DNA of 64,000 nt from assembly GCF_007990755.1 (NCBI RefSeq), contig NZ_BJXA01000016.1, positions 1-64,000 of the forward strand, written 5' to 3'. Shown one piece after another: positions 20,592 through 52,205 of this stretch. The stretch's first letter is position 1. Each line of letters begins with the position of its first letter. The notes under the pieces are model-generated. The model was not told the DNA's origin and made no database searches. It worked only from the letters and a program-made list of their open reading frames with translations. This DNA comes from Nocardia ninae NBRC 108245. Lineage in GTDB: Bacteria; Actinomycetota; Actinomycetes; Mycobacteriales; Mycobacteriaceae. Made by a program: the position numbers and the translations under genes.

Positions 20592-21440
20592 TTAGTCGGT
20601 TTGGTGGGTGAGTAGGGGGTGGGGTTGTTGGGTGAGTGTTGCTAGGGCGGTGGTGATTTCGTAGAGGTCGGCTTTGACGTAGGTGGTGGTGGTGCCGTGG
20701 GCTCGGGTGCGGTGGCCGGCGTAGGCGCGGGCGGTGGCGTAGCCGTAGGCGCGTTCGACCCAGGTGAGGGTGGTGTGGCGTAGCCAGTGGGTGGTGATGC
20801 GTTGGGCGGCGACCCAGGGGAGGTGGGTGCCGATGCGGGTCCAGAGGTGGTCGTAGCGTCGGCGGGTGATGGGTTTGCCGTTGCGGTAGCGCAGGAGCTG
20901 ACCTTCTGGTGGGCTGCGGCGTTGTACTGCGTGGTGTTGTAGGTGGGCCATGAGGGTGGGGGAGACCGGTTGCCAGCGGTCGATGCCGTTCTTCTCGCGC
21001 AACAGGATCAGACTGTTGTGGGGGTCGAGGTCACACGGGCGCAGGTTCAGGGCGCCGCCGCGGCGGCAGGCGGTTTCGATGTGCAGGCGTAGCAGCAGGG
21101 TGTCGAGTTCGCGGTCGTCGCCGGTGATGGAGGTGACGTGGCAGATCTCGGCCAGGCGTGGTGAGGGGATCGCTTGCCGATGTGAGGCGGGCCGGACGGG
21201 CCTGGTCAAGCGGGCGGCGGGCCAGCCAACGTGTGGAATAGGTGTTTGTCGTGGAAGCGTCCAGCATCACCGACGGTGCACATGCGGTAGACAATGCTGC
21301 GGTTGATCGGTTCGGCGACGGGTGGTGGTGCGGTGCGCAGGCTGTCGATCAGTTCGTCGATCGACGTCAGGGGGGGATGGCTGGTGGGATCAGCACGGCG
21401 CGTACCTTCTTGCGGTGGTGCAGCTGAGGTGGAATGTAGT
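20592..21440 (-). pseudogene. Tyrosine recombinase (integrase), frame-broken
   Basis: The C-terminal 205 residues from 21209 leftward keep the catalytic core: Arg in IETACRRGGALNLR, HWLRHT (HxxR), YAGH and the likely nucleophile in TTTTYVKADL. The preceding part continues in two other frames: LTSIDELIDSLRTAPPPV to LFHTLAG (about 21225-21375), and before that HRKKVRAVLIPPA, with a C7 run at the second break. Two frameshifts thus separate it from its N-terminus. It is probably the integrase that placed the island in tRNA-Leu, now inactive. Confidence 0.75.
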
Positions 21441-21625: not shown

Positions 21626-21659
21626 CCCCTGTGAGGCCGGACGTCCGGGCTCACAGGGG
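21626..21659 (-). terminator. Large palindrome after the SAVED-like gene
   Basis: CCCCTGTGAGGCCGGAC and GTCCGGGCTCACAGGGG form 17-bp arms with one mismatched pair and no spacer. It starts 3 bases after the stop of the minus-strand SAVED-like gene and so likely ends that transcript before the integrase remnant. Confidence 0.7.
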
Positions 21660-21661
21660 GA

Positions 21662-22729
21662 TTAAGGCCAGGTGGGGAGTTGTTCGTAGGTGGCGGTGTC
21701 GCGGTTGAAGGTGAAGGCTTGCCATCGGCCGTGTTCCGCGGCGGCGAGTCGGGCACCGAGTGCGATGGCGATGGAGAGTGCGCCGCTGAGGAAGATCGTG
21801 TGTCGGCCGCTGCGGGCGGTTGGTGTGAGGCCTGCGTTGCGCCAGGCGTGGCTGATTTGGGCGACGGCGGCTTCGAAGGTTTCGGGGTTGTTGTTGAGTT
21901 GGTGTGTGGAGTTTCGCAGGGTGAGCACGATGCTGATCCGCTGTTGGACGCAGATGGTGTTGACGTCGGAATCGAAAGTGGCGCCTCGGTTTTCGAGGTC
22001 GAGTGCGAGTGCTGCGTGGGTGGGTTCGCCTGCGGTGAAGTGGTGCAGTTGTTCGATTGTTAGTGGCGTTCGGGTGGCTGTTGTGGAGGTGCGCAATGAG
22101 ATTGCGTCGAAGTGGGTGTTGGTGCCGTTGCCGCGCAGGGTTTGGTGGATGCGGATGTCGCGGGCGTGGGCGCTGCCAAGTCGGGTGCCGAACCAGAATC
22201 CGGCGTGCAGGGGCATGGTCGGTATGAGATGGAATTGGGTAGCGTCGGGGGTGAGTCGTTCGGCGAGTGTGATGGCGGACAGGGTTTCGTCGGCGAGTGC
22301 TTCGATGAGTGGGCGAGTGGGGCGTTGGCCGTCGGTGGTGGGGATTGCGGTTTTGAGGGCGACGGTGCAGGTTCTTTGGGCGTAGCGTTCGGCCTGTTGG
22401 TCGAGTTGAGCGGCGCCGGTTAGACCGCGGGCGGCGTCAGGTGCGGTGATTACGATCGCAACGCGAGTGCGGCGGCCGGTGTGCTGGCGCAGGAGTGTGC
22501 CCAGGCTGATGACGGCGATTCCGATCAAAGTCGCGGCCACGAAGTACCAGCGGCCGCCTTCATCGGTGGTGACAAACGATTTGGCGGCTTCGACGCCGAA
22601 GCCGCCGGCGATGATGCCGCCCACTGTGGCGGCGATGGTGCCGTCCTGCAGGGCTTGGTGCCCGTGGCTGATGGTCGGGGGTGATGTGCCCAGGATCGTC
22701 AGCTGCGGGGCTCGTGGGTGGAAGCTCAT
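21662..22729 (-). CDS. Membrane protein with C-terminal SAVED-like domain
   Basis: From the ATG at 22729 the product is 355 aa. Two hydrophobic segments near the N-terminus (about 31-47 and 61-80, WYFVAATLIGIAVISLGTLL) precede a soluble domain. That domain has features of SAVED, the cyclic-oligonucleotide sensor of CBASS: FHLIPTMPLHAGFWFGTRL in the middle and FLSGALSIAIALGARLAAAE near the end, closing with a YEQLPTWP tail. A membrane-SAVED layout is known for Cap14-type CBASS effectors. No CD-NTase is adjacent; the neighbours upstream on the same strand are the unknown 282-aa gene and the SIR2-like/STAND gene. The domain call is by pattern only. Confidence 0.65.
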   Translation of the reverse strand: MSFHPRAPQLTILGTSPPTISHGHQALQDGTIAATVGGIIAGGFGVEAAKSFVTTDEGGRWYFVAATLIGIAVISLGTLLRQHTGRRTRVAIVITAPDAARGLTGAAQLDQQAERYAQRTCTVALKTAIPTTDGQRPTRPLIEALADETLSAITLAERLTPDATQFHLIPTMPLHAGFWFGTRLGSAHARDIRIHQTLRGNGTNTHFDAISLRTSTTATRTPLTIEQLHHFTAGEPTHAALALDLENRGATFDSDVNTICVQQRISIVLTLRNSTHQLNNNPETFEAAVAQISHAWRNAGLTPTARSGRHTIFLSGALSIAIALGARLAAAEHGRWQAFTFNRDTATYEQLPTWP

Positions 22730-22857
22730 GGGGGTGCGGGTTCTCTCGACGAGCAGGGTATCGCGGTTCAAGGGTTTCGGGTTGGCGGATGCGGAACGTG
22801 GGAACGAGTCGGTCTGATCCGGTGATGACGGCTCGGCCGCCGAGTGAGCCGGGAGCG

Positions 22858-23706
22858 TTATCGGGTGCTGCCACGGACATCGACCAGGTCGGTCCACACC
22901 TTCGCAACGAGGCCGACGAATGCATTGCCTGGCAACTCGGCAATCTCGTTGACAGAATGCGCAAGTCGCAACGCCGGTGCTGCGTCCAAGCTGCCGCCGA
23001 TACTGAGCTCCTCGAGGATGTCTCGGAAGGAACATGGGAGCGATACGAAGGTGTTGACCAGTTCACGCTCGGCCAATGACTCCAATCGTTCGATCGGTGG
23101 CCGCCCGTCCGATCGAACCTCGCGTGTCCACAGCGTTGTCACCACTCTGATCCGACGGTCCAGCTCGTTCTTGGGGAATTTCAGTCCGAGATCCGATGCG
23201 ACATTGGTTACGACGGCTGGAACACTGACAGATTCGCGGGCCCGCCATTCTGCGCGCAATTCCGCAGACGTAACGATATCGGACGCGATTTCGGACAGCT
23301 CAGCCAGAGCCTTGGCGAGACTCTCGGCGAGTGCTACCCCGCAGACTGCCCATTGTGATTCAGCCACACCATCGGTGACCAAGCGGACCCACCTATCTCG
23401 TACCTCGATTGCAGAAATCGCATTCGTATGCTCGTTAGCAGTGCGAATGTTGAGGATGAGTGTTGTGAACAAATCCACGGCAGGATGCCGGTCATGTTTA
23501 TCTTTGAGGAAGGCGATATCATCGGCGAGGGTTTCTTTCCAGAGTTTATAATACGAAGATACCACCTTGCGGAACTCGGCCTCGGTCGAGCTGTCGACCA
23601 GCCAGGTGTCTTCCGCTGCAGAGCGTAGCCCGACGCCAGCGCACAACCTCTTCTTCTGATCTATTTCCTGAAGGCTGGACATTGCGAAGATCGTAGCCGT
23701 TTTCAT
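22858..23706 (-). CDS. Unknown 282-aa protein coupled to the STAND gene
   Basis: The ATG at 23706 overlaps the STAND gene's stop (ATGA), so the two are translated together. The product begins MKTATIFAMSSLQEIDQKKR and is soluble and helical, with no recognisable catalytic motif or membrane segment. Base composition is lower in GC than the chromosomal genes, like the STAND gene. Coupled partners of large STAND NTPases are often regulators or effectors, but nothing here says which. A longer in-frame ORF from 23880 would lie wholly inside the STAND gene and is unlikely. Confidence 0.75.
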   Translation of the reverse strand: MKTATIFAMSSLQEIDQKKRLCAGVGLRSAAEDTWLVDSSTEAEFRKVVSSYYKLWKETLADDIAFLKDKHDRHPAVDLFTTLILNIRTANEHTNAISAIEVRDRWVRLVTDGVAESQWAVCGVALAESLAKALAELSEIASDIVTSAELRAEWRARESVSVPAVVTNVASDLGLKFPKNELDRRIRVVTTLWTREVRSDGRPPIERLESLAERELVNTFVSLPCSFRDILEELSIGGSLDAAPALRLAHSVNEIAELPGNAFVGLVAKVWTDLVDVRGSTR

Positions 23707-26700
23707 TTCACCGACCTCGTCTCGGGACGAGTCGACGACCCACGGATCGGGTCGGCGATGGTGCCGCGCATATTGAAGGCGATATGAAACTTCGGTAGCA
23801 GATCGCCTCGCTTCCGCAGCTCGCTGACCGAGAACCTTAACGGTATGAAATTCACTTCCACCGAGAGCTGATCGACCCACACGGCACCGCGTCTGCCATC
23901 TGCGGCCGCCCAGGTAACACGGCCGGTGAATTCACGAGCAGTTCCGTCCGGATTCGAGACCACATATGAGGACAGAACGCGCCTCGACATGTCGGTTGAT
24001 TGTCGTTCGACCGATTTGAAGACCTCGTCCGATATCGCAAAATTGCCGAGATGGAACAGCGATATCCCGCGCAAGAAGTCTACTTTATAGCGAACATACC
24101 GGGCGGGGCGTGTGATCAAGTCGGTAATTTTCAGGCACTCTTCCCAATCGGCGCGGCTGAACGGAAGTGCGATCCGCTCGTTGCTCAAAAAGGGGGTACC
24201 GGCCTTCAATCTCCAGAACAAATCGAACAGCAGATGCGAGCAACGCCAGTCGTCACGAACAGCGGCGGGAGCGGTCATCAATCGCTCAACTGCTGCGGCG
24301 AGGCCAGCTGCGCCGGTATCTGCTTCATAGCGCGCCAAGCAATAGTACGCTGCCGGGTCGCCGCTCTGTCGGAGCACATCCAGATAATTGGATTCTCGCG
24401 CCTGATCCTGCATCAGACTGGCGATATTGGCGCGTCGTTGAAGATAGTTTGCTCGCTGGCCTGGGTTCAGTAGCTCCGAGTCGAACGAGTCCAAAGATGC
24501 ATCGGCATCTGCCAAAACCCGTACGCGGTCGACAGGCGTCAGATTCGACTTTCGTACGAGGTTGTCGCTCACCCAGGCAACAACATCGACCGGATACACG
24601 TTCTCGGGATCGAGTGCTCTGGCTTCGAGTGATATTTCTACCACCCGTTCCATCAAATTCATCACCCGGTCTGGTTGGACGGAGTTGGCGGTGAGTTCGT
24701 ATATCTCAGCGCCGACCGTAGACGCCAGTTCGACCAGCAAGAACAATCGAGTTCTTTTTCCAACGTTGTCTTCATACGCCGTAGCTTCGAGTAGACACCG
24801 AGAATACTCCAGAATGCGAAGTCGTTCATCAAACTTCGGTAGATCTCGCTTATTTTTGACGACATACTCACGCCGAAGATTGGCCTCAAGCAGAACCAGG
24901 CGTGGATGGCCTGGCGCACCGCGCTCCCGGCGATCGCGCAGCGAGTCGGCGAGGGCTCCATAATAGCGGCTGTATTCGCTCGAATTATTCAGACCTGCTG
25001 CCTGTGGTCCGATGCGTCCGATCAAATCGACGATGAATTCAACTTCGCGACCGCCCCAGAGTGTGGAATCGGCATGAATTTCGGTTATGTATTGTGCTAG
25101 TATCTCGACCTCGGATTCGAGAGTGATATTCTCTCGCGCCAGCAACTCGGCTTCGAGTTGCGTCCGACTCCCTATGTATTGTTCGCCACTGTTCTCGTCT
25201 TCGGTCCATCGGAAAATATCGAAGCTGGTGACCAGATCCACGATCTGGTTGACGCCTGCCCTGCCGATGATTCTGAGCAGCAGTTCCAGTGGTACCGGGA
25301 GGCCCCGTCTACCTGCCACGAGTACCACCGCAGTCAGCTGCTCGGCCGTCGAGCGTTGGTCGAAATGGAGGCTTTTCATCTCCTCGTCGGGATGATCGGA
25401 GGGCACAAATACTTTGATTTCATAGCCGGCGACAAGCAATGCGTGTGCTACTGCGCCGTAGCATCCGACCTCGGTTCTGTCGAGACTGCGTGCTTGTTTC
25501 TCAAGGCCGAATTCGGATGCCCGCATTTCCATTGAAAGGCCTCTGCGTAAGCCTCGCTCCGTCTGCGGCAGGGCTCGGTAGAGCAACGCGAGAAGGGATG
25601 ATTCGAGCTCATGATCACTCAGCTCCGGGGTAGGGATTTTGAATCGCCGAAGCCACGCTTTCATCTCGGTTATCTCGGCCTCTGACAAATCGGGCGACGC
25701 ACTGATAATCTCTGATTTCGGTCGCCGTCGAAGCTTGTAACTGCTGCCGACGATCTGGACACGGCGTCCTCTTGCCCTGAGATCATTGTTCAAGCCATAG
25801 TATTCATCCGGAGACTCCATGCCATCCCAGATGAGCAGAACGGCGGGCAGGCTGTTCTCTTCGGCCCATGCGCAGAATCGATCTATGTCCGAGAGGTTCG
25901 GGCGTTCGCCTCGACGAGACTGGTGCAACACGGCGAATTGACCGGCTCTGGCGATTTCGATGGCCAGCTGACACAGTGCCATTGATTTGCCCGTGGCTGT
26001 TTGTCCCATGAGAATCAACGGCTTCGGGTTCGGCTCGCTGAGCCCTTTGCGAACTCGCCTCAGGAGTTCTTCCTCGAAGTCTCTGGTGATCTTCATCCCG
26101 CTTGCTATCGACTTCCAAGGTGGCATTCCCTCACTGGAACCGAGAAGTTCGAGCAGGCGCTGGTACTCAGTGGGATCGGGTCCCATGGGTGATGGCTCCA
26201 GTAGTTCGGTGTCGATCGGTCGGACCGAGCCGATGACCTGGTTCCAAATATCGACCCCAATTTTGGCGAATCCGTTCTTTACCGGGATGAGGCGTGTTCC
26301 AGAACTGTCGGCTGATTCGTACCGAAAATTCAAGACTCCACTATGTGAAAGTTCGTCGAGAGCCTCCGCGGCGGAGGATGAGTGCGTGATCAATTGCCCG
26401 CGTCGAACAGCTTCATCTATGAACTGGTCGCGCGCCAATTCTGGTGTCATTGAAAACAGGTGGGCTTGCCCGGGTTGCAGGCGGGTCAAGAGAGAGTACA
26501 TCTCTTCGGTACTCAGCCAATCCTGCCGACCAAAGCATTCAATTAGAACTATACCGCGAGGCGTTATCAGCTTGGTAGCAAAGGTGAACAGCGTATCGCG
26601 CGCGCGTGTTCGAGTGTCACTTTCTTGTATGGCGTTTGTCGGTGGACGTTCGTCGGGAACCAGCTCTACGCCGCCGAAGAGCATTCGTACTATCAACTCG

Positions 26701-27038
26701 GTGGCACTGCGCGGAAAGCGTCCGAGTTGAGCACCGCCGGTCGCGGCAACTCGCCGCCATGGTGCTTCGAACAAGTGTGGTAGTGCAGCGTCGATGCGGC
26801 TGGTGAATACTCCGTTCCAGCTGTAGCCGGCCAGGCGAAGTAGCTGCTCGCTGGGTGCGTCGGAAAGCATCCTATCGCTGTATGCGGCGAATTCTTCGGC
26901 GAGATCGGTGCCCGGCTCTGCCTCCGATGGCAGCGGCGGCGGGGCCGTCGACCGATCGAGGCCCAAATTCTGGCCGAGTAGCAGGAAGCGGGGACCATGT
27001 GTCAGCCCAAGAATCAAACTGCGTCGTTTGCTATCCAT
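23703..27038 (-). CDS. STAND-type P-loop NTPase with N-terminal SIR2-like domain
   Basis: 1111 aa. Residues about 1-230 follow the layout of SIR2-like domains found on antiphage proteins: an opening RSLILGLTHGPRFLLLGQNL, SWNGVFTSRIDAAL in place of the usual TTNxD, LFGGVELVPDE, then RGIVLIECFGRQDWLSTEE. The nicotinamide-site Asn of TTNxD is Arg here. The NTPase has Walker A GQTATGKS (345-352) and a Walker B-like AVLLIWDGME. The remaining about 500 residues look like helical repeats, probably the sensor. Such proteins typically detect phage products and deplete NAD. The gene is coupled to the next and is visibly less GC-rich than the chromosome. Confidence 0.78.
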   Translation of the reverse strand: MDSKRRSLILGLTHGPRFLLLGQNLGLDRSTAPPPLPSEAEPGTDLAEEFAAYSDRMLSDAPSEQLLRLAGYSWNGVFTSRIDAALPHLFEAPWRRVAATGGAQLGRFPRSATELIVRMLFGGVELVPDERPPTNAIQESDTRTRARDTLFTFATKLITPRGIVLIECFGRQDWLSTEEMYSLLTRLQPGQAHLFSMTPELARDQFIDEAVRRGQLITHSSSAAEALDELSHSGVLNFRYESADSSGTRLIPVKNGFAKIGVDIWNQVIGSVRPIDTELLEPSPMGPDPTEYQRLLELLGSSEGMPPWKSIASGMKITRDFEEELLRRVRKGLSEPNPKPLILMGQTATGKSMALCQLAIEIARAGQFAVLHQSRRGERPNLSDIDRFCAWAEENSLPAVLLIWDGMESPDEYYGLNNDLRARGRRVQIVGSSYKLRRRPKSEIISASPDLSEAEITEMKAWLRRFKIPTPELSDHELESSLLALLYRALPQTERGLRRGLSMEMRASEFGLEKQARSLDRTEVGCYGAVAHALLVAGYEIKVFVPSDHPDEEMKSLHFDQRSTAEQLTAVVLVAGRRGLPVPLELLLRIIGRAGVNQIVDLVTSFDIFRWTEDENSGEQYIGSRTQLEAELLARENITLESEVEILAQYITEIHADSTLWGGREVEFIVDLIGRIGPQAAGLNNSSEYSRYYGALADSLRDRRERGAPGHPRLVLLEANLRREYVVKNKRDLPKFDERLRILEYSRCLLEATAYEDNVGKRTRLFLLVELASTVGAEIYELTANSVQPDRVMNLMERVVEISLEARALDPENVYPVDVVAWVSDNLVRKSNLTPVDRVRVLADADASLDSFDSELLNPGQRANYLQRRANIASLMQDQARESNYLDVLRQSGDPAAYYCLARYEADTGAAGLAAAVERLMTAPAAVRDDWRCSHLLFDLFWRLKAGTPFLSNERIALPFSRADWEECLKITDLITRPARYVRYKVDFLRGISLFHLGNFAISDEVFKSVERQSTDMSRRVLSSYVVSNPDGTAREFTGRVTWAAADGRRGAVWVDQLSVEVNFIPLRFSVSELRKRGDLLPKFHIAFNMRGTIADPIRGSSTRPETRSVK

Positions 27039-28754: not shown

Positions 28755-31022
28755 TCAGTAGGCCCCTGCGGCGATTCGATACACCGCTGAGGGATCTTGG
28801 CTGGTCCTCCCGGTCAGGTACAAATCACCGGAATTGGCAACTGCGACATCGGAAAGTATCAGTCCGTTTGTGGGAATCACGGAGCTTGTAGTCGATCCTG
28901 TGGGAAACCGCATGAGCGCTGTATCGATGAAGTCGCCGCCTGGCCCGTGGCGCGACACGATAGCGAAGAGATCTCCGTTGCTTGCTGTGGTGCATTTCTG
29001 CGCGATTTCGTTGCTGAACAGCGGGATCACTGTAATTGTGGTTCCGTTGTCGAGTCGCAGAATGCCGTGGTCGGCGATACCGCCGGTTTCTCCGTCGTAG
29101 TTGCCGCCGGCGTAGATGACCCCGTCTGGCGACGCGGCGAGGCAGCCCGATCCGGCTGCTACCTCGGTGCGTCCAGGATAGTTCGGCTGCAGAAACGGCA
29201 GAACCGTCGACGTGTTCGTCCCTGCCTCGATCTTCTCAACTCGATTGCGAGCGTGACTCTCGGGTGCTGTCGGATCTTTTCCCAGCACGTACGTATTGAA
29301 TTGACCGTCCACTGCCACGTCGACGAGGCGCTGCACCTGCGAGTACGGCACGGTGACCGCTGAGGCTGCTCCCGGGGCCAGCTTTTGCACGAGATGTCCG
29401 CCGGCGGGACCACCTGGGGTGTCGGCTACGTACACCGCCCCTGCCGTGTCGGTGGCGATTCCGACGACGTAGTACAGCTGAGCGAAGGGCAGCTCAACGG
29501 GAGTCGTCGAACCGGGGGCGTACTTGACGACTTTGCCTCCCTGCGTGTGGCTTGCGAGGTAGAGGTCGCCATTCGGGCCGATCGCGAGCTGGCTCGGGTC
29601 TGGGAAACCGGTCAGCGGGACCTGCTGCAACACACCGGATCCGCCGGTAGAACTGCGGGTGATGGTCAGACTCGCGGGGCCGCTGATCGTGGCGACCAGT
29701 CCACGTGCCTGCCCGTCAAATCTAGCGAACAACTCCGTCAAGCTGTGCGCGAGCGCCAAGACGTTGCTGCCCTTTTCGGTGAGCGCGCCGGTCTGTTCGG
29801 CATAGCTCACCAAGCACTGCGTCACGATCTGCGCTGAGGACAACACGTCGTCGACGTTGCTCGGGTTCTTCCCGGCCAGATCCATGGATTGGCGCACGCA
29901 CTCGCCGGCCGGTTTGATTTGGGCGAGCGGCTGTCCTCGTGTCAGGCGATCGGTGACGAGCTTCATCGTGGTGACCAGGATTTGGAAGGTGGTCAGTCCG
30001 GCGTTCGGCGTCAAGGTCGCGGAGCTCGGCGGGAGGTTCGCTTCGAACGACGCCGATCCGCCGGTCAAGATCTGGGTCGCGTCTCCGTCCAGTCCGGCAC
30101 CGATTTCCCCTGCCATCCAGTTGAAGACATCATCGACGGTGCCGATCGTGTCGGTGTTGATCACGCCGTCGATAGGTGGATCGGTCGTTGCGTCCCATAC
30201 CAAGCTGGTGTTCGAATGCAGCGTCAGGCGGGCTGCACCGGATGATCCACGATCCAGGCACGGCCAGACCACATCGTCAGTGCCGGGAACTGGCCCGACA
30301 CCAGGCGAATTGACTCGTGGCAGTGAGTATTTCGTCGCACCGTCGATGTAGTCGGTGAACGCGCACCCGGGCTTGGGGTACCGGGTGCCGGTCAGCTCGC
30401 CCCACTTCTGTCCGAGCCACGTGCTGGTCTGGTCCCAGTTGATCTCGAACGGAAAGACAATGCTGAGTTGTCCCAGCCGTGCGGTGAGCACCTTGGTACC
30501 CGGATCCCATGTCGCATCGGTCCATGTCGCGGTTTGGTCGCCCTGGTGCTGAGACAGCAGTTTCGGAACCGAACGGTGCGTTGTGCCGCCAAGACGATCC
30601 GCAGGCAACCCGGATAGGTTGTACCGCAGGGTGATCGGTGTAGCGGGCTGCATGTTGCCGTCGCCGAGCCGGATCGACACCGGTGCTGCGATCACATCAG
30701 CGAGTTCGGCCTGCGCCGCGTTGAGCTGGGTGGAAGCCATTGCCACGGTGACGGCGGTGCCGACCGGTGCCACGCCCGAGTCGCCGGTGACTTCCACGGC
30801 ACCAACCACGGCAGTGAATCCCTCCGGCCCGACCGTGGTGGTCAACGGCGGCGGTGTCGGGGGCTCGTTCCCGCTCCCGGAGCTTCCGCTGCCTGTATCG
30901 GGTAGCGGAGCCGCTTCCGCGACAGATGCAGACATCGGACCGGTCAGGACCGCCACGGTCAATACTGCGACGGCGGTTCGCCACCGCGCCTCGGCGCGTG
31001 CAGACCGAAACCTACCGACCAT
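28755..31022 (-). CDS. Secreted NHL/beta-propeller repeat protein
   Basis: 755 aa with a Sec signal peptide (TAVAVLTVAVLTGPMSASVAEA, likely cleaved after AEA) and AAAGGAAT before the ATG. A low-complexity Gly/Ser/Pro stretch follows, then about 400 residues of unknown fold. The C-terminal third holds NHL/Vgb-like propeller blades (PSQLAIGPNGDLYLAS; LVDVAVDGQFNTYVLG; CLAASPDGVIYAGGN; LSDVAVANSGDLYLTG). It is an exported protein, probably for binding rather than catalysis. It has no operon partner and stands out from the defence-like genes around it. Confidence 0.8.
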   Translation of the reverse strand: MVGRFRSARAEARWRTAVAVLTVAVLTGPMSASVAEAAPLPDTGSGSSGSGNEPPTPPPLTTTVGPEGFTAVVGAVEVTGDSGVAPVGTAVTVAMASTQLNAAQAELADVIAAPVSIRLGDGNMQPATPITLRYNLSGLPADRLGGTTHRSVPKLLSQHQGDQTATWTDATWDPGTKVLTARLGQLSIVFPFEINWDQTSTWLGQKWGELTGTRYPKPGCAFTDYIDGATKYSLPRVNSPGVGPVPGTDDVVWPCLDRGSSGAARLTLHSNTSLVWDATTDPPIDGVINTDTIGTVDDVFNWMAGEIGAGLDGDATQILTGGSASFEANLPPSSATLTPNAGLTTFQILVTTMKLVTDRLTRGQPLAQIKPAGECVRQSMDLAGKNPSNVDDVLSSAQIVTQCLVSYAEQTGALTEKGSNVLALAHSLTELFARFDGQARGLVATISGPASLTITRSSTGGSGVLQQVPLTGFPDPSQLAIGPNGDLYLASHTQGGKVVKYAPGSTTPVELPFAQLYYVVGIATDTAGAVYVADTPGGPAGGHLVQKLAPGAASAVTVPYSQVQRLVDVAVDGQFNTYVLGKDPTAPESHARNRVEKIEAGTNTSTVLPFLQPNYPGRTEVAAGSGCLAASPDGVIYAGGNYDGETGGIADHGILRLDNGTTITVIPLFSNEIAQKCTTASNGDLFAIVSRHGPGGDFIDTALMRFPTGSTTSSVIPTNGLILSDVAVANSGDLYLTGRTSQDPSAVYRIAAGAY

Positions 31023-42011: not shown

Positions 42012-43256
42012 GTGACGAATCATGAGGTGCTCAACGTGGAGGACTGGGCGGAGATCCGCCGATTGCATCGGGCCGAAGGCATGCCGATCCGGGCCATCGC
42101 CCGGCATCTACACGTCTCGAAGAACACCGTAAAGAAGGCCCTAGCTGCGCACCAACCCCCGAGATACCAACGGCCGTCCAAGGGTTCGGCCGTCGATGCG
42201 TTCGAACCGCAGATCCGGGCGCTGCTATCGGAGTTCCCGGACATGCCGACGACGGTGATCATGGAACGAGTCGGTTGGCAGCGCGGCAAAACCGTGTTCT
42301 TCGAGCGAGTCCAGCAGCTGCGACCCTTGTTCAAGCCACCGGACCCGGCCTCGCGCACCGAGTATCAGACTGGCGAGCTCGCTCAGTGCGACCTGTGGTT
42401 CCCGCCTGCCGATATCCCGTTGGGGTTCGGGCATGTCGGTCGACCGCCGGTGCTGGTCATGGTGAGCGGGTATTCGCGGGTCATCGCCGCGGTGATGCTC
42501 GCTACCCGGCAAAGCCCTGATCTGCTGGCCGGGCATTGGGCGTTGATCTCACACTGGGGCCGGGTGCCGCGCGCACTGGTGTGGGACAACGAATCCGCAG
42601 TCGGGCAATGGCGCGGCGGCAAACCCCAGCTGACCGACGCGATGAACGCCTTCCGTGGAACGCTCGGCATCAAGATAATCCAATGTCGTCCCGCTGACCC
42701 TGAAGCGAAAGGACTCGTCGAACGCGCCAACGGCTACCTCGAGACCTCGTTCCTTCCCGGCCGAAGCTTCATCGGCCCAGATGATTTCAACGCTCAGCTC
42801 GCCGAGTGGCTGGAGCGGGCGAACCAGCGCCACCATCGGCGATTGGGTTGTCGGCCGGTCGATCGTTGGTCTGCCGATCGAGCCGCGATGCTCGAACTGC
42901 CGCCGGTCGACCCGGTCGTCGGGTGGCGGCTAACGACGCGGCTGCCGCGCGACCACTACGTGCGCTTGGACTCCAATGACTACTCGGTGCATCCAGCAGT
43001 GATCGGCCGCAACGTCGACATTCGTGCCGACCTGCACCGGGTGGTGATCCTCTGCGGCGGCACCGAAGTCGGGCGTCACGAACGGTGCTGGGCGCGGCAT
43101 CAGACCATCAGCGATCGCGTCCACATCGCCGCGGCTGCCCAGATGAGGCGGTCTCGCGGTCTGGCGGCCGTGCCGATGGTCGACACGTTGGTCGAGCATC
43201 GCGATCTCACCGACTATGACCGGATGTTCGACCTCGACAGTGAAGGGATCGCCTGA
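42012..43256 (+). CDS. istA: IS21-type transposase IstA
   Basis: 414 aa. N-terminal helix-turn-helix (IRAIARHLHVSKNTVKKAL), then a DDE integrase core: first Asp in LAQCDLWFPP, second in LVWDNESAVG, Glu in AKGLVERANGYLE. The C-terminal beta domain ends with RLDSNDYSVHPAVIGR. It catalyses strand transfer together with the ATPase IstB. The gene starts at a GTG; a GTG 24 bp further in (VEDWAEIRRLHRAEG) is an alternative. Confidence 0.93.
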   Translation: MTNHEVLNVEDWAEIRRLHRAEGMPIRAIARHLHVSKNTVKKALAAHQPPRYQRPSKGSAVDAFEPQIRALLSEFPDMPTTVIMERVGWQRGKTVFFERVQQLRPLFKPPDPASRTEYQTGELAQCDLWFPPADIPLGFGHVGRPPVLVMVSGYSRVIAAVMLATRQSPDLLAGHWALISHWGRVPRALVWDNESAVGQWRGGKPQLTDAMNAFRGTLGIKIIQCRPADPEAKGLVERANGYLETSFLPGRSFIGPDDFNAQLAEWLERANQRHHRRLGCRPVDRWSADRAAMLELPPVDPVVGWRLTTRLPRDHYVRLDSNDYSVHPAVIGRNVDIRADLHRVVILCGGTEVGRHERCWARHQTISDRVHIAAAAQMRRSRGLAAVPMVDTLVEHRDLTDYDRMFDLDSEGIA

Positions 43257-44053
43257 TGACCGCCAAGTCCTCCACCAGCGGCGCCCGCAATGTAGGTTCT
43301 GAAATCGCTTATCTGGCAAGAGTTCTCAAAGCGCCCACCCTGGCTGGCGCGGTCGACCGGCTCGCCGAGCGTGCTCGCTCGGAAGGCTGGACTCATGAGG
43401 AGTTCCTTGCCGCGTGTCTGCAACGCGAAGTCGCTGCCCGCGAAGCTCACGGCGGCGAAGGCCGCATCCGCGCCGCCCGGTTCCCATCACGGAAATCCCT
43501 GGAAGAGTTCGACTTCGACCATCAACGCTCACTCAAACGTGACACCATCACTCACCTCGGAACCCTGGATTTCATCACCGCCCGCGACAACGTCGTCTTC
43601 CTCGGCCCACCCGGAACCGGCAAGACACATCTATCGATCGGGCTCAGTATCCGCGCGTGCCAAGCGGGACATCGTGTGGCATTCGCGACCGCCGCCGAAT
43701 GGGTTGCCCGTCTAGCCGAGTCCCACCAGGCCGGAAAACTGCAGGCAGAGCTGATCAAGCTCGGCCGGATTCCGCTCCTGGTAGTCGACGAGGTCGGCTA
43801 CATCCCCTTCGAATCCGAAGCGGCCAACCTGTTCTTCCAGCTGGTCTCGTCCCGATACGAACGGGCAAGTTTGATCGTGACCAGCAACAAACCCTTCGGC
43901 CGCTGGGGCGAGGTGTTCGGAGACGACATCGTTGCCGCGGCCATGATCGACCGCCTCGTCCACCACGCCGAGGTCATCTCCCTCAAAGGCGATAGCTACC
44001 GCCTCAAAGACCGCGATCTCGGCCGCGTTCCCGCGGCCAAAACCAACGACTGA
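43256..44053 (+). CDS. istB: IS21-type transposition helper ATPase IstB
   Basis: 265 aa, DnaC-like AAA+ ATPase: Walker A FLGPPGTGKTHLSIGL, Walker B LLVVDEVGYIPF, sensor SLIVTSNKPFGRW. The N-terminal helical domain (LARVLKAPTLAGAVDRLAER) contacts IstA. TGATG overlap with istA couples translation. Length and motifs are complete. Confidence 0.94.
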   Translation: MTAKSSTSGARNVGSEIAYLARVLKAPTLAGAVDRLAERARSEGWTHEEFLAACLQREVAAREAHGGEGRIRAARFPSRKSLEEFDFDHQRSLKRDTITHLGTLDFITARDNVVFLGPPGTGKTHLSIGLSIRACQAGHRVAFATAAEWVARLAESHQAGKLQAELIKLGRIPLLVVDEVGYIPFESEAANLFFQLVSSRYERASLIVTSNKPFGRWGEVFGDDIVAAAMIDRLVHHAEVISLKGDSYRLKDRDLGRVPAAKTND

Positions 44054-49130: not shown

Positions 49131-52100
49131 GTGAACCGGACGAATACCAGTGCAGCGAATCCAATGCCCCACAACCCATATCGCACAGCGCTACAGTGCC
49201 TCTGTGCAGGCGAAACAGGTGTGCGAGTCGCCGCGACTCGCTACGAGTCCTACTGCCGTCGACTCGGCCGGGTCGAGCGAGCATTGACAGCGCCAGACGC
49301 CTACTCCGTGTTCGTCGCGGACCTGGACCGCTTGCATGCGGCCGCGGGATACCCCACCGCAGCCCGGATCTCGTCGGCGATCAGTATCAGCTACAAACAG
49401 AAGGTCGCTGCCTCTACGATCAAGGGCTGGCTAGGCGAGAGGAACAGCCCACGACGGATCCCCCGTGAACACCAGAGCCGAAAGTTCGCTCTCGTCCTCT
49501 CCTATCTGCACGAATGTGCCAATAGACCATTCGATCGCGATGTCCCGCAGTCATGGGAGCTCCGTCGCCGCGCCGCGGAGAACGGACGCCCCAAGACTGA
49601 GGATGGCCACGCGGGCGCTCCAACTCCCGCAGATGACGGATCGGGCCGCTATGCCGATGTGAAGCCGGTGTATGCAGGCGTGAACGGTGAGCCGTCGTCG
49701 CTGGCTGGGCGGTCGCTATATGTGACGCAGGTTCGAGAGTTCATCGCCCCTATCGGTGGTCTGCGCGACCGCGCCTCCGAGATGGAAATGCTGGCCCGGT
49801 TCTGCCGAGGCAGGAGCCCGTATCTATGGGTGCGTGCTGATCCTTGGGCTGGCAAGTCGGCGATGCTGTCGACGTTCGCGGTGAAACCGCCTGCCGATCT
49901 CACCGTGGTGAGTTTCTTCGTTACTGACCGCCTTGCCGACCAGAACACCCACACTGCCTTCACCGCCGCAATCCTGGATCAACTCGCGGCATTGCTACCC
50001 GAACACAGGGAAGTGATCTCGGTAGCGGCGATTAACCGTGACGGGCTGCGCAACGAGCTTCTCTCGATCGCTGCCGATCAAGAGGAAAAAGCGAAGCGAC
50101 GGCTGGTGCTGGTGGTCGACGGGCTGGACGAGGATACTGGAACACCGCCGATCGCGGGCCTGCTTCCGGCCCAGCCCCCGCAGAACCTGCGAGTTATCGT
50201 CGCTAGTCGCCACGGCCCGGAGTTGCCGATCCCGCAACGACATCCCCTCACCAATGCGAAGTCACACCTGCTCAAGCCCTCACCGTTCGCTGCCGACATC
50301 CGCTCGCGCGCGGTCACAGAACTCGATACCCTGCTGCGCGGCCCGAACAGTCAGCGCGACCTGCTCGCCCTGATCACCGCCGCAAACGGCCTGTCCACGA
50401 GCGAACTCGTCGGCCTCACTGTGATGGCACCCTACGAGATCGACGGACTGCTGAGCGCGGTCACTGGACGTAGCTTCCGCGCCCGCGCAAGCAGGACCGA
50501 CCGCGACGACGGGACGAATCCGGTTTATGTGCTGGCGCACGAAACCTTGCAGCGCACCGCCGAACACCGACTCGGCCCCCACCACATCAATAGGGCCTTG
50601 ACACATTTGCATAGGTGGGCCGAACACTACCGCGATCAGGGTTGGCCATCGCACACCCCCGATTTCTTACTGCAGCGCTACTTCCCGGTGCTCGAACGCC
50701 ACGGCGACCTGCCGCGGATGGTCGCGCTGGCACTCGATGCCACCCGCCACCGGCTGATCGCCAAACGCACCGGCAGCGGCTGGATCCCGCTCGCCGAGAT
50801 ACGCACCGTACAGCGGCACATCTGTGAACAGCGCGACCCCGACCTGCTCACCACTGTTCGTCTCGCCCGCTATCGCGACAGCCTGTACCATCGCAGCAAC
50901 ACCACCTTTCGATGGCCGACAAACCTGTGGGGCCGCAGTGCCCAACATGTCGCACGATATTGGACGGAAGCTCAGAGTGGTGACAACAATGAACCGGGGC
51001 GGCAGCACGAAGCCCTCGCCCGCGACATCACCGATACCAAACAGTGGGATGACGCGCTGGTCCGTCTCGCCGAGTTCACCGCGGCGATCGATCCTGATCG
51101 GGCTGAAATCCTGGTCCACGACATAAACGAACCGTGGCGGCGGGCCGAAGCATTGACCCGCATCGCCGAGGTAGTCGCGAGAACAAACCCCGACCGGGCT
51201 GAAATCCTGATCCATGACATAAACGAACCGTGGCGGCGGGCCGAAGCATTGACCCGCATCGCCGAGGTAGTCGCGAGAACAAACCCCGACCGCTGCCGAA
51301 TGGATCGACTCGCCGATCGAGCCGAAGCCCTCGTCGGCGACATCACCGACACATCCCGGCGAGCGGACGCGCGGGCCCGCATCGCTGGGGTTGTCGCGAG
51401 AACTGACCCCGACCGAGCCGAAGCTCTGGTAGGCGACATCACCGACGCGTGGCGGCGGGCCGAAGCACTGACCCGCATCGCCGAAGTAATCGCTAGAACC
51501 AACCCCGACCGAGTGGATCGACTCGCCGATCAGGGCGAACTCCTGATCCGCGATTTCACCGACCCATGGTGGAAGGCCAATACGATGGCCCGTCTTGCTG
51601 GAATTATTGCAGAAGCCGATCCCGACCGGGCAACTCAACTCGCTGATCGAGCCGAAGCCCTCGTCGGCGACATCACCGACACATCTCGGCGAGCCGACGC
51701 GCTGGCCGGCATCGCCGAGGCAGTCGCAAGAACCAAGCCCGACCGAGTGGATCGACTCATCGATCAGGGCGAACTCCTAATCCGCGATATCACCGACCCA
51801 TGGTGGAAGGCCGAAGCACAGGCCCGTCTAGCCGCGGCAGTGGTGGAAACCGATCCAGACCGAGCGGAAACCCTAGCGCGCAACATCGGCGATCCGAAGC
51901 GGCAGTCCGCCGCACTCATCTACCTCGCAACTGTGGTCGAAGGTGCCAACGTCCGATTTCAAGGGCGCACCACCCCCGGCTCAAGTTCCGGCAGAGACCA
52001 GTCAGCGGTCGCCACTGAGAAACCGGCAGGTATAAGGGCGAAACGTCTCCTCGCGCGTGCCTGGGCAGTTTGGCGGTGGGAGGCTCCGCTGTCGGCGCTG

Positions 52101-52205
52101 GCCATTGTTGACAAACCGATCCTGGCCACCGTCGTGTCCGAAGTCACCGCCGAATCGATGAATTCGCCGATTCATCAGAACCCGGACATAGGCACCGACC
52201 TCTGA
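49131..52205 (+). CDS. STAND NTPase with HTH-like N-terminus and tandem C-terminal repeats
   Basis: 1024 aa if the GTG at 49131 is used; starts further in are possible. The N-terminus (DAYSVFVADLDRLHAA; SYKQKVAASTIKGWLG) looks like an XRE-type DNA-binding domain. The NTPase has Walker A ADPWAGKS (236-243), Walker B LVLVVDGLDED and LRVIVASRHG. Residues about 640-930 are repeats of roughly 31 residues of the type DPDRAEALVGDITD then RRAEALTRIAEVVART. Several are nearly identical at DNA level. In STAND proteins such repeats form the sensor, so recent duplication suggests selection for changing specificity. Confidence 0.78.
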   Translation: MNRTNTSAANPMPHNPYRTALQCLCAGETGVRVAATRYESYCRRLGRVERALTAPDAYSVFVADLDRLHAAAGYPTAARISSAISISYKQKVAASTIKGWLGERNSPRRIPREHQSRKFALVLSYLHECANRPFDRDVPQSWELRRRAAENGRPKTEDGHAGAPTPADDGSGRYADVKPVYAGVNGEPSSLAGRSLYVTQVREFIAPIGGLRDRASEMEMLARFCRGRSPYLWVRADPWAGKSAMLSTFAVKPPADLTVVSFFVTDRLADQNTHTAFTAAILDQLAALLPEHREVISVAAINRDGLRNELLSIAADQEEKAKRRLVLVVDGLDEDTGTPPIAGLLPAQPPQNLRVIVASRHGPELPIPQRHPLTNAKSHLLKPSPFAADIRSRAVTELDTLLRGPNSQRDLLALITAANGLSTSELVGLTVMAPYEIDGLLSAVTGRSFRARASRTDRDDGTNPVYVLAHETLQRTAEHRLGPHHINRALTHLHRWAEHYRDQGWPSHTPDFLLQRYFPVLERHGDLPRMVALALDATRHRLIAKRTGSGWIPLAEIRTVQRHICEQRDPDLLTTVRLARYRDSLYHRSNTTFRWPTNLWGRSAQHVARYWTEAQSGDNNEPGRQHEALARDITDTKQWDDALVRLAEFTAAIDPDRAEILVHDINEPWRRAEALTRIAEVVARTNPDRAEILIHDINEPWRRAEALTRIAEVVARTNPDRCRMDRLADRAEALVGDITDTSRRADARARIAGVVARTDPDRAEALVGDITDAWRRAEALTRIAEVIARTNPDRVDRLADQGELLIRDFTDPWWKANTMARLAGIIAEADPDRATQLADRAEALVGDITDTSRRADALAGIAEAVARTKPDRVDRLIDQGELLIRDITDPWWKAEAQARLAAAVVETDPDRAETLARNIGDPKRQSAALIYLATVVEGANVRFQGRTTPGSSSGRDQSAVATEKPAGIRAKRLLARAWAVWRWEAPLSALAIVDKPILATVVSEVTAESMNSPIHQNPDIGTDL
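51106..51300 (+). repeat. Near-perfect tandem DNA repeat inside the STAND gene
   Basis: Two adjacent copies of a unit of about 96 bp (starting GGGCTGAAATCCTG) differ at only about two positions. Each encodes AEIL-HDINEPWRRAEALT and the following 13 residues. Further shared blocks occur at 51317 and 51645 and at 51512 and 51750. Confidence 0.85.

Follow-up and report, generated by a model that had tools for sequence, protein, structure and literature searches.

We propose that three adjacent reverse-strand genes of Nocardia ninae NBRC 108245, located in a stretch of 64,000 nucleotides (the window), comprise two independent neighbours: a two-gene antiviral module, in which a STAND NTPase with a probably dead SIR2-like domain is coupled to a partner that is probably a HEPN RNase, and an orphan SAVED effector (probability roughly 0.6). 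The STAND gene and the gene for its 282-aa partner are a conserved coupled pair, and they constitute a real, conserved, and probably undescribed two-gene module of a known kind, STAND immunity. The SAVED gene would adjoin this module by chance or through the clustering of defence genes. The contig that holds the window is 140.5 kb long and belongs to a genome of 9.7 Mb, assembled in 204 contigs.

A STAND NTPase whose SIR2-like domain lacks its catalytic residues

The larger gene of the pair and its features are as follows.

23703..27038 (-), STAND NTPase gene, 1111 aa, with a SIR2-like N-terminus, a STAND core, and a long C-terminal part (ORF call and Pfam)
26328..27038 (-), SIR2-fold domain, approximately aa 1-237 of the STAND protein, predicted to be catalytically dead
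26790..26807 (-), FTSRID at the place of the TTNxD motif, aa 78-83 of the STAND protein
26670..26681 (-), LFGG at the place of the catalytic His-Gly motif
25983..26006 (-), Walker A motif GQTATGKS with an intact Lys

The initial annotation described a STAND NTPase of 1111 aa whose gene overlaps a 282-aa gene by ATGA, and this description is borne out by the ORF calls and by a Pfam match to nSTAND_NTPase5 (E 1.3e-9). At E<=1, nSTAND5, AAA_25, and DAP3 are the only Pfam domains of the window protein. nSTAND_NTPase5 is also found in 12/12 aligned members of the family and in a relative from a viral contig, L037, in which a match to nSTAND3 reaches only E 0.022. Moreover, the Walker A GK[ST] is retained in all 12 aligned proteins, and L037 has GKT, as judged by reading. 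Neither PADLOC (2023; E<=1) nor NCBIfam has a match for the STAND protein.

Pfam detects no SIR2 domain in this protein at E<=1. AlphaFold was therefore used to model aa 1-290, with a mean pLDDT of 81.8 for the best of five models and 68.9-74.6 for the rest, residues 240-290 lying mostly below 60. The modelled structure matched SIR2 defence proteins, as the initial annotation had supposed of the N-terminus. That annotation had also pointed to FTSRID in the place of TTNxD, which is indeed seen at aa 78-83, and had suggested that NADase activity might be altered or lost. Loss is the outcome supported by the alignment: in 12/12 aligned proteins, Arg or Ala stands in for the catalytic Asn of TTNxD, and Phe, Leu, or Tyr for the catalytic His, so that the domain is probably dead as an NADase. 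It is highly unlikely that the domain still works as an NADase with altered residues, even though the SIR2 fold is retained and Avs5 functions with Asn replacing the canonical His. In the accessible part of the same Avs5 study (PMC12931631), the Asn of TTNxD is required, as evidenced by the N110A variant, in which immunity is lost, and protection likewise disappears when the His/Asn place of Avs5 is occupied by Ala or Gln; in the family described here, both places are occupied by other residues throughout.

A cold-shock or OB fold at the C-terminus of the STAND protein, considered from a pattern noticed by eye, found no support, with an hhalign score of 15.2 against CspA/CspI that lies below those of shuffled CspA controls (up to 18.2). 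PDB and Pfam searches gave no match for an OB fold there, and Pfam found no TPR in the 12 members at E<=0.1.

Conservation of the STAND and partner pair

The STAND family is rare and patchy in samples of the order, phylum, and class. Relatives were found in 2/348 genomes of the order, including its own (the other is 47% identical over its full length), and in its own genome only in the phylum (1/396) and class (1/394) samples. A pattern scan of genome contigs with the two-protein STAND alignment yielded ten more relatives, 28-48% identical in the best segment. By title, eight of these belong to Actinomycetota, one is a Microcoleus, and one is a Sideroxydans; five of the ten are MAGs. A scan of viral contigs added L037 (30% identical), and searches of plasmids and of phages with the STAND proteins gave no match. 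The STAND loci thus total 13, with the window included.

The window partner, used as a single query, had no match in genome contigs or plasmids and found only its own genome among 397 genomes of the order. Because single-sequence search fails for the partner, STAND was taken as the anchor. An ORF of 259-333 aa lies on the same strand directly after STAND in 13/13 loci, and in 12 of them the two reading frames overlap at the STAND stop (by 4 nt in eight and by 1, 8, 11, and 41 nt in four), while the L037 partner starts 5 nt past the stop; these starts were set mechanically, except that of L034, which was moved by hand from 5676 (a longer overlap) to 5838 to give a 4-nt overlap. When all ORFs of at least 70 aa were compared across the 13 loci, from 3 kb upstream to 4.5 kb downstream of STAND (less at contig ends), the partner was, apart from matches between close relatives, the only shared family. 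Two partner clades, of 9 and 4 members, can be told apart. BLAST at 1e-5 does not join them, but aligning their profiles with each other shows them to be homologous (98.8%, E 8e-16), and cross-clade hmmsearch was significant for 4/4 in one direction and 6/9 in the other.

The other shared-ORF matches are those between two close relatives, L015 and L028, and a single reverse-strand match between L027 and L028. A gene upstream of STAND is common to L015 (11989-12519) and L028 (724-1491), 73% identical over 140 aa, and has no match at E<=1e-5 in the remaining loci of the 13.

The partner as a candidate HEPN RNase

The second gene of the pair has the following features.

22858..23706 (-), gene of the 282-aa partner, an all-helical protein and candidate HEPN RNase, its start overlapping the STAND stop by 4 nt (ATGA) (ORF call, alignment, and AlphaFold model)
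23428..23445 (-), RTANEH, the RxxxxH motif of the partner (alignment)

Across the 13 partners, which are 14-31% identical to the window partner, the sole invariant columns are R88, H93, W106, and W154. The AlphaFold model of the partner (pLDDT 89.5) is all-helical and places RxxxxH where helix 75-92 ends, ahead of a loop to helix 97-111. In HEPN RNases, the catalytic Rx4-6H lies where helix 3 gives way to the loop that leads to helix 4, according to the accessible part of PMC3710099, and the likeness, for which we assigned the HEPN helix numbers of the partner ourselves, extends to a Glu in the helix preceding RxxxxH, retained in 10/12 partners. The partner is therefore probably a HEPN-type ribonuclease, as predicted from its alignment and model. 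It differs from known HEPN ribonucleases in having no significant fold or profile match and no Pfam family. Foldseek found nothing significant in the PDB (best E 1.5), VIA returned only common helical arrangements (HEPN chains missing from its list exclude nothing), sequence-profile searches of the PDB brought up no HEPN chain, and PADLOC gave a chance-level match (E 0.026). We therefore treat HEPN as the best reading and not as shown. The initial annotation had called the partner a protein of no recognised family, which is correct insofar as no Pfam or NCBIfam family fits and Pfam has no HEPN match, but it overlooked the family-wide HEPN-type RxxxxH.

The C-terminus of the partner weakly resembles tRNA_NucTran2_2 in two loci, L037 (10651-11580, E 5.3e-4) and L035 (5591-6592, E 0.0095), both matches being under the Pfam cut-off. 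The PDB profile search does not support this likeness, which is a lead only, a hint of tRNA binding.

A different division of labor, which we consider doubtful, would make the partner an adaptor, an antitoxin-like inhibitor, or a second sensor and the STAND protein the effector, acting through an unrecognised SIR2-like activity. The missing HEPN match by fold or profile would fit a partner that is not an RNase, as would its two invariant Trp residues, which the RNase reading does not explain, and R95, R110, Q191, H193, and H219, invariant in the SIR2-like domain of the family, could form a new active site in the STAND protein. Nevertheless, the one motif invariant in 13/13 partners lies at the HEPN position, and the SIR2 Asn and His are missing from 12/12 STAND proteins.

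If the partner is an RNase controlled by STAND, the likeliest mechanism is that an infection signal would bind the C-terminal region of the STAND protein, and ATP binding would drive its assembly. The partner may then be held or released by the dead SIR2 domain or by the core once assembled, and its paired HEPN domains would cut RNA, perhaps tRNA, and growth or translation would stop as a consequence.

An orphan SAVED effector next to the pair

A third gene lies on the same strand and is followed by an inverted repeat.

21662..22729 (-), 2TM-SAVED effector gene, 355 aa from ATG, judged to lie outside the STAND module (Pfam, NCBIfam, and PADLOC)
21626..21659 (no strand), palindrome of 17+17 nt, 94% complementary, directly after the SAVED stop, terminator-like without a T run
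20592..21209 (-), tyrosine integrase-like ORF, 205 aa (Pfam PF00589, E 4.9e-11)

The initial annotation recognised a SAVED-like membrane protein here, and this is supported by matches to SAVED in Pfam (E 2.4e-8) and NCBIfam (E 3.5e-18), by PADLOC matches to 'CorA' PDLC01176 (E 7.5e-92) and SAVED_TM PDLC02014 (E 2.3e-33), and by two hydrophobic stretches near the N-terminus, with a third at approximately aa 308-332 inside the SAVED part. The 34-bp palindrome said to close the run is also present. It is not among the six terminator-like sites of a scan in which 5.1 were expected by chance.

Base composition already separates the STAND gene and its partner (GC, 0.564 each; GC3, 0.61 and 0.64; coding-strand skew near 0) from the SAVED gene (GC 0.643; GC3 0.756; skew -0.345), and the lower GC reported initially holds for the pair and not for SAVED. 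The integrase-like ORF beside SAVED has a skew of -0.406, strong like that of SAVED. Co-occurrence was searched in 11 STAND stretches (L015 and L026-L035, with L037 left out) and 8 SAVED stretches, 7-19 kb long and some with only a few hundred bases on one side; rows of the SAVED_L016 query, which is in the wrong frame with two stops, were left out of the result. SAVED was absent from 11/11 STAND stretches searched, and STAND and partner were absent from 8/8 SAVED stretches searched. The initial annotation had itself named a failure of the three genes to co-occur as grounds for refuting its proposal.

This co-occurrence search led us to reject SAVED as a third component of the STAND module. 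The initial annotation had proposed that the STAND protein, the partner, and the SAVED membrane effector form one three-gene system. The shared strand, the gap of only 128 nt between the partner stop and the SAVED start (without translational coupling), and the palindrome past the third gene speak for such a system. Set against the separate occurrence of the genes, their difference in GC, GC3, and skew, and the company that SAVED relatives keep elsewhere, it is scarcely plausible. The candidate undescribed system thus shrinks to the STAND and partner pair.

SAVED relatives accompany cyclases or type III CRISPR. They were found in 9/348 genomes of the order, eight besides its own (42-52% identical), and a search of plasmids gave no match. 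A CD-NTase adjoins SAVED in four genomes (G168, G138, G327, and G212), and E1, E2, and JAB genes were confirmed nearby in G168 and G327, the two that were scanned. In G278, a DS2-like nucleotidyltransferase, whose match is well under the NCBIfam cut-off, lies tail-to-tail with SAVED. Two further loci (G342 and G219) hold Cas10 and a TIGR03986 RAMP gene, and the locus of G239 holds Cas4-Cas1, Cas2, and repeat-like sequence, as judged by eye from ORF translations, with Cas10 approximately 15 kb away.

Some of these loci merit separate description. In L018 (7565-9562), a DS2-like nucleotidyltransferase without a Pfam SMODS match is tail-to-tail with a 2TM-SAVED gene, possibly a CBASS-like pair. 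L019 (8607-14970) and L020 (2955-8748) are type III CRISPR loci with a 2TM-SAVED gene nearby, in which a Cas10-like protein of 467 aa or similar size adjoins one TIGR03986 RAMP protein of 718-754 aa with weak Cas7-11-like similarity; this arrangement looks like a compact type III variant.

The window SAVED gene resembles the 2TM-SAVED effectors of CBASS and type III CRISPR in its matches to PDLC01176 and PDLC02014, and it differs from them in that no cyclase or CRISPR machinery was found nearby or in the genome. The tblastn queries for CD-NTase, E1, E2, JAB, Cas10, and RAMP found none of these in the window (sole row, E 0.08, G049 partner), in agreement with the initial statement that no CD-NTase is adjacent, and a CD-NTase remnant beside SAVED was rejected on this basis. 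The same queries on the fetched stretches L024 and L025 gave one chance row (E2, E 0.033). Genome-wide, no SMODS (PF18144) and no convincing cyclase (PDLC00823) was detected; a weak cyclase match at G000:C6:38022 (E 0.0017) is a 294-aa ORF that reads as an ordinary nucleotidyltransferase and was set aside. PF18144 recognises 2/3 of the relatives' enzymes tried, and therefore a divergent CD-NTase could be missed. The divergent enzyme of G278 escaped the PDLC00823 search, so this third, DS2-like type was sought separately, and none was found in the genome of the window. Cas10 was absent by a query that found 3/3 positive genomes and by TIGR02578, which found 1/3 of them, and mCpol (PF18182) was absent at E<=0.01.

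As far as these searches reach, then, the window gene is an orphan two-helix effector of the CBASS/type III CRISPR type by its sequence, a status limited to what was searched because assembly gaps and divergent enzymes can escape. It is possible, though on balance unlikely, that SAVED is an active effector of a cyclic nucleotide from an undetected or distant enzyme, through cross-talk or as a Panoptes-like guard. Its 355-aa frame is intact, the accessible part of PMC12657218 describes a small set of mCpol operons with 2TM-SAVED genes, and an assembly in 204 contigs leaves gaps; the genome, however, yielded no convincing CD-NTase, Cas10, mCpol, or DS2-like enzyme.

Relation to known STAND systems

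The closest parallels for the STAND protein come from SAMD9 and Avs5. As laid out in the accessible text of Mekhedov and colleagues (PMC5445408), the SAMD9 family combines AlbA, a variant SIR2, a STAND-like NTPase with a GGT/S P-loop, TPR, and an OB fold, and it has bacterial members, especially in actinomycetes. The accessible part of a review states that human SAMD9 is a tRNase through its AlbA-like domain and that it is not known exactly what triggers SAMD9/9L (PMC13245274). Compared with these descriptions, the window protein shares the order and fold of a variant SIR2-like domain ahead of a STAND NTPase, but its family has a Walker A GKS/T in 12/12 members instead of GGT/S, and it has a partner gene in place of an AlbA/tRNase domain on the same chain. 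SAMD9 was absent at E<=1 from a whole-length sequence-profile search of the PDB with the STAND family.

Avs5, a SIR2-STAND protein, likewise has an N-terminal SIR2 fold. According to the accessible part of PMC12931631, it carries PF13289 (SIR2_2), nSTAND3 (PF20720), and an active TTNxD NADase, whereas the window protein has nSTAND5, lacks the catalytic Asn, and comes with a second gene; neither SIR2_2 nor nSTAND3 was detected in it at E<=1.

Other published systems are more distant. The accessible part of a study of phage-satellite hotspots describes STAND proteins with SIR2 and mentions no such pair (PMC9122126), and that of another work predicts a different two-gene system, made up of nSTAND2 proteins together with an inactive STAND module to which GT4 or HEPN domains are fused (PMC8195603). 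Among the matches listed in a search of titles and abstracts, with most subscription journals outside its range, no description of the STAND and partner pair was found.

We tentatively raise the idea that the pair corresponds to the human SAMD9 tRNase in split form, in which a SAMD9-like receptor without NADase activity retains its sirtuin domain as a dead scaffold and acts through a HEPN RNase, possibly one that cuts tRNA, from the overlapping gene. If true, STAND immunity would gain a module in which the effector has a gene of its own and a pseudo-sirtuin is conserved. The pair would further offer a tractable bacterial system for investigating virus sensing and RNase switch-on by SAMD9-type proteins.

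Genomic context

The neighbourhoods of the pair are supportive of a defence role, not proof of one. For instance, L037, a phage contig of 17 kb, carries integrase, portal, capsid, and terminase genes, with its STAND and partner pair placed between the portal side and terminase. PADLOC matched three of 10 neighbour proteins taken from 7 loci: the pair of L031 has PDC-S37/Hhe-like and AbiEii matches as flanking neighbours, and that of L026 a PD-Lambda-3_B match. The remaining 7/10 proteins, and 5/7 loci, had no PADLOC match.

Upstream of STAND in the window, a 755-aa ORF (28755-31022) has a secreted-looking start, as judged by eye, and an NHL repeat (Pfam E 4.5e-4); its PADLOC match to PD-T4-6 is weak and partial (E 8.5e-5). 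Farther along, a 1024-aa ORF (49131-52205) contains an NPHP3_N-type NTPase domain (Pfam E 2e-11) and, within its final third (51099-51862), tandem repeats with units of 96 bp and 234 bp, and it is possibly another repeat-bearing conflict protein. An IS21-type element with Mu-like transposase and IstB genes occupies window positions 42012-44053.
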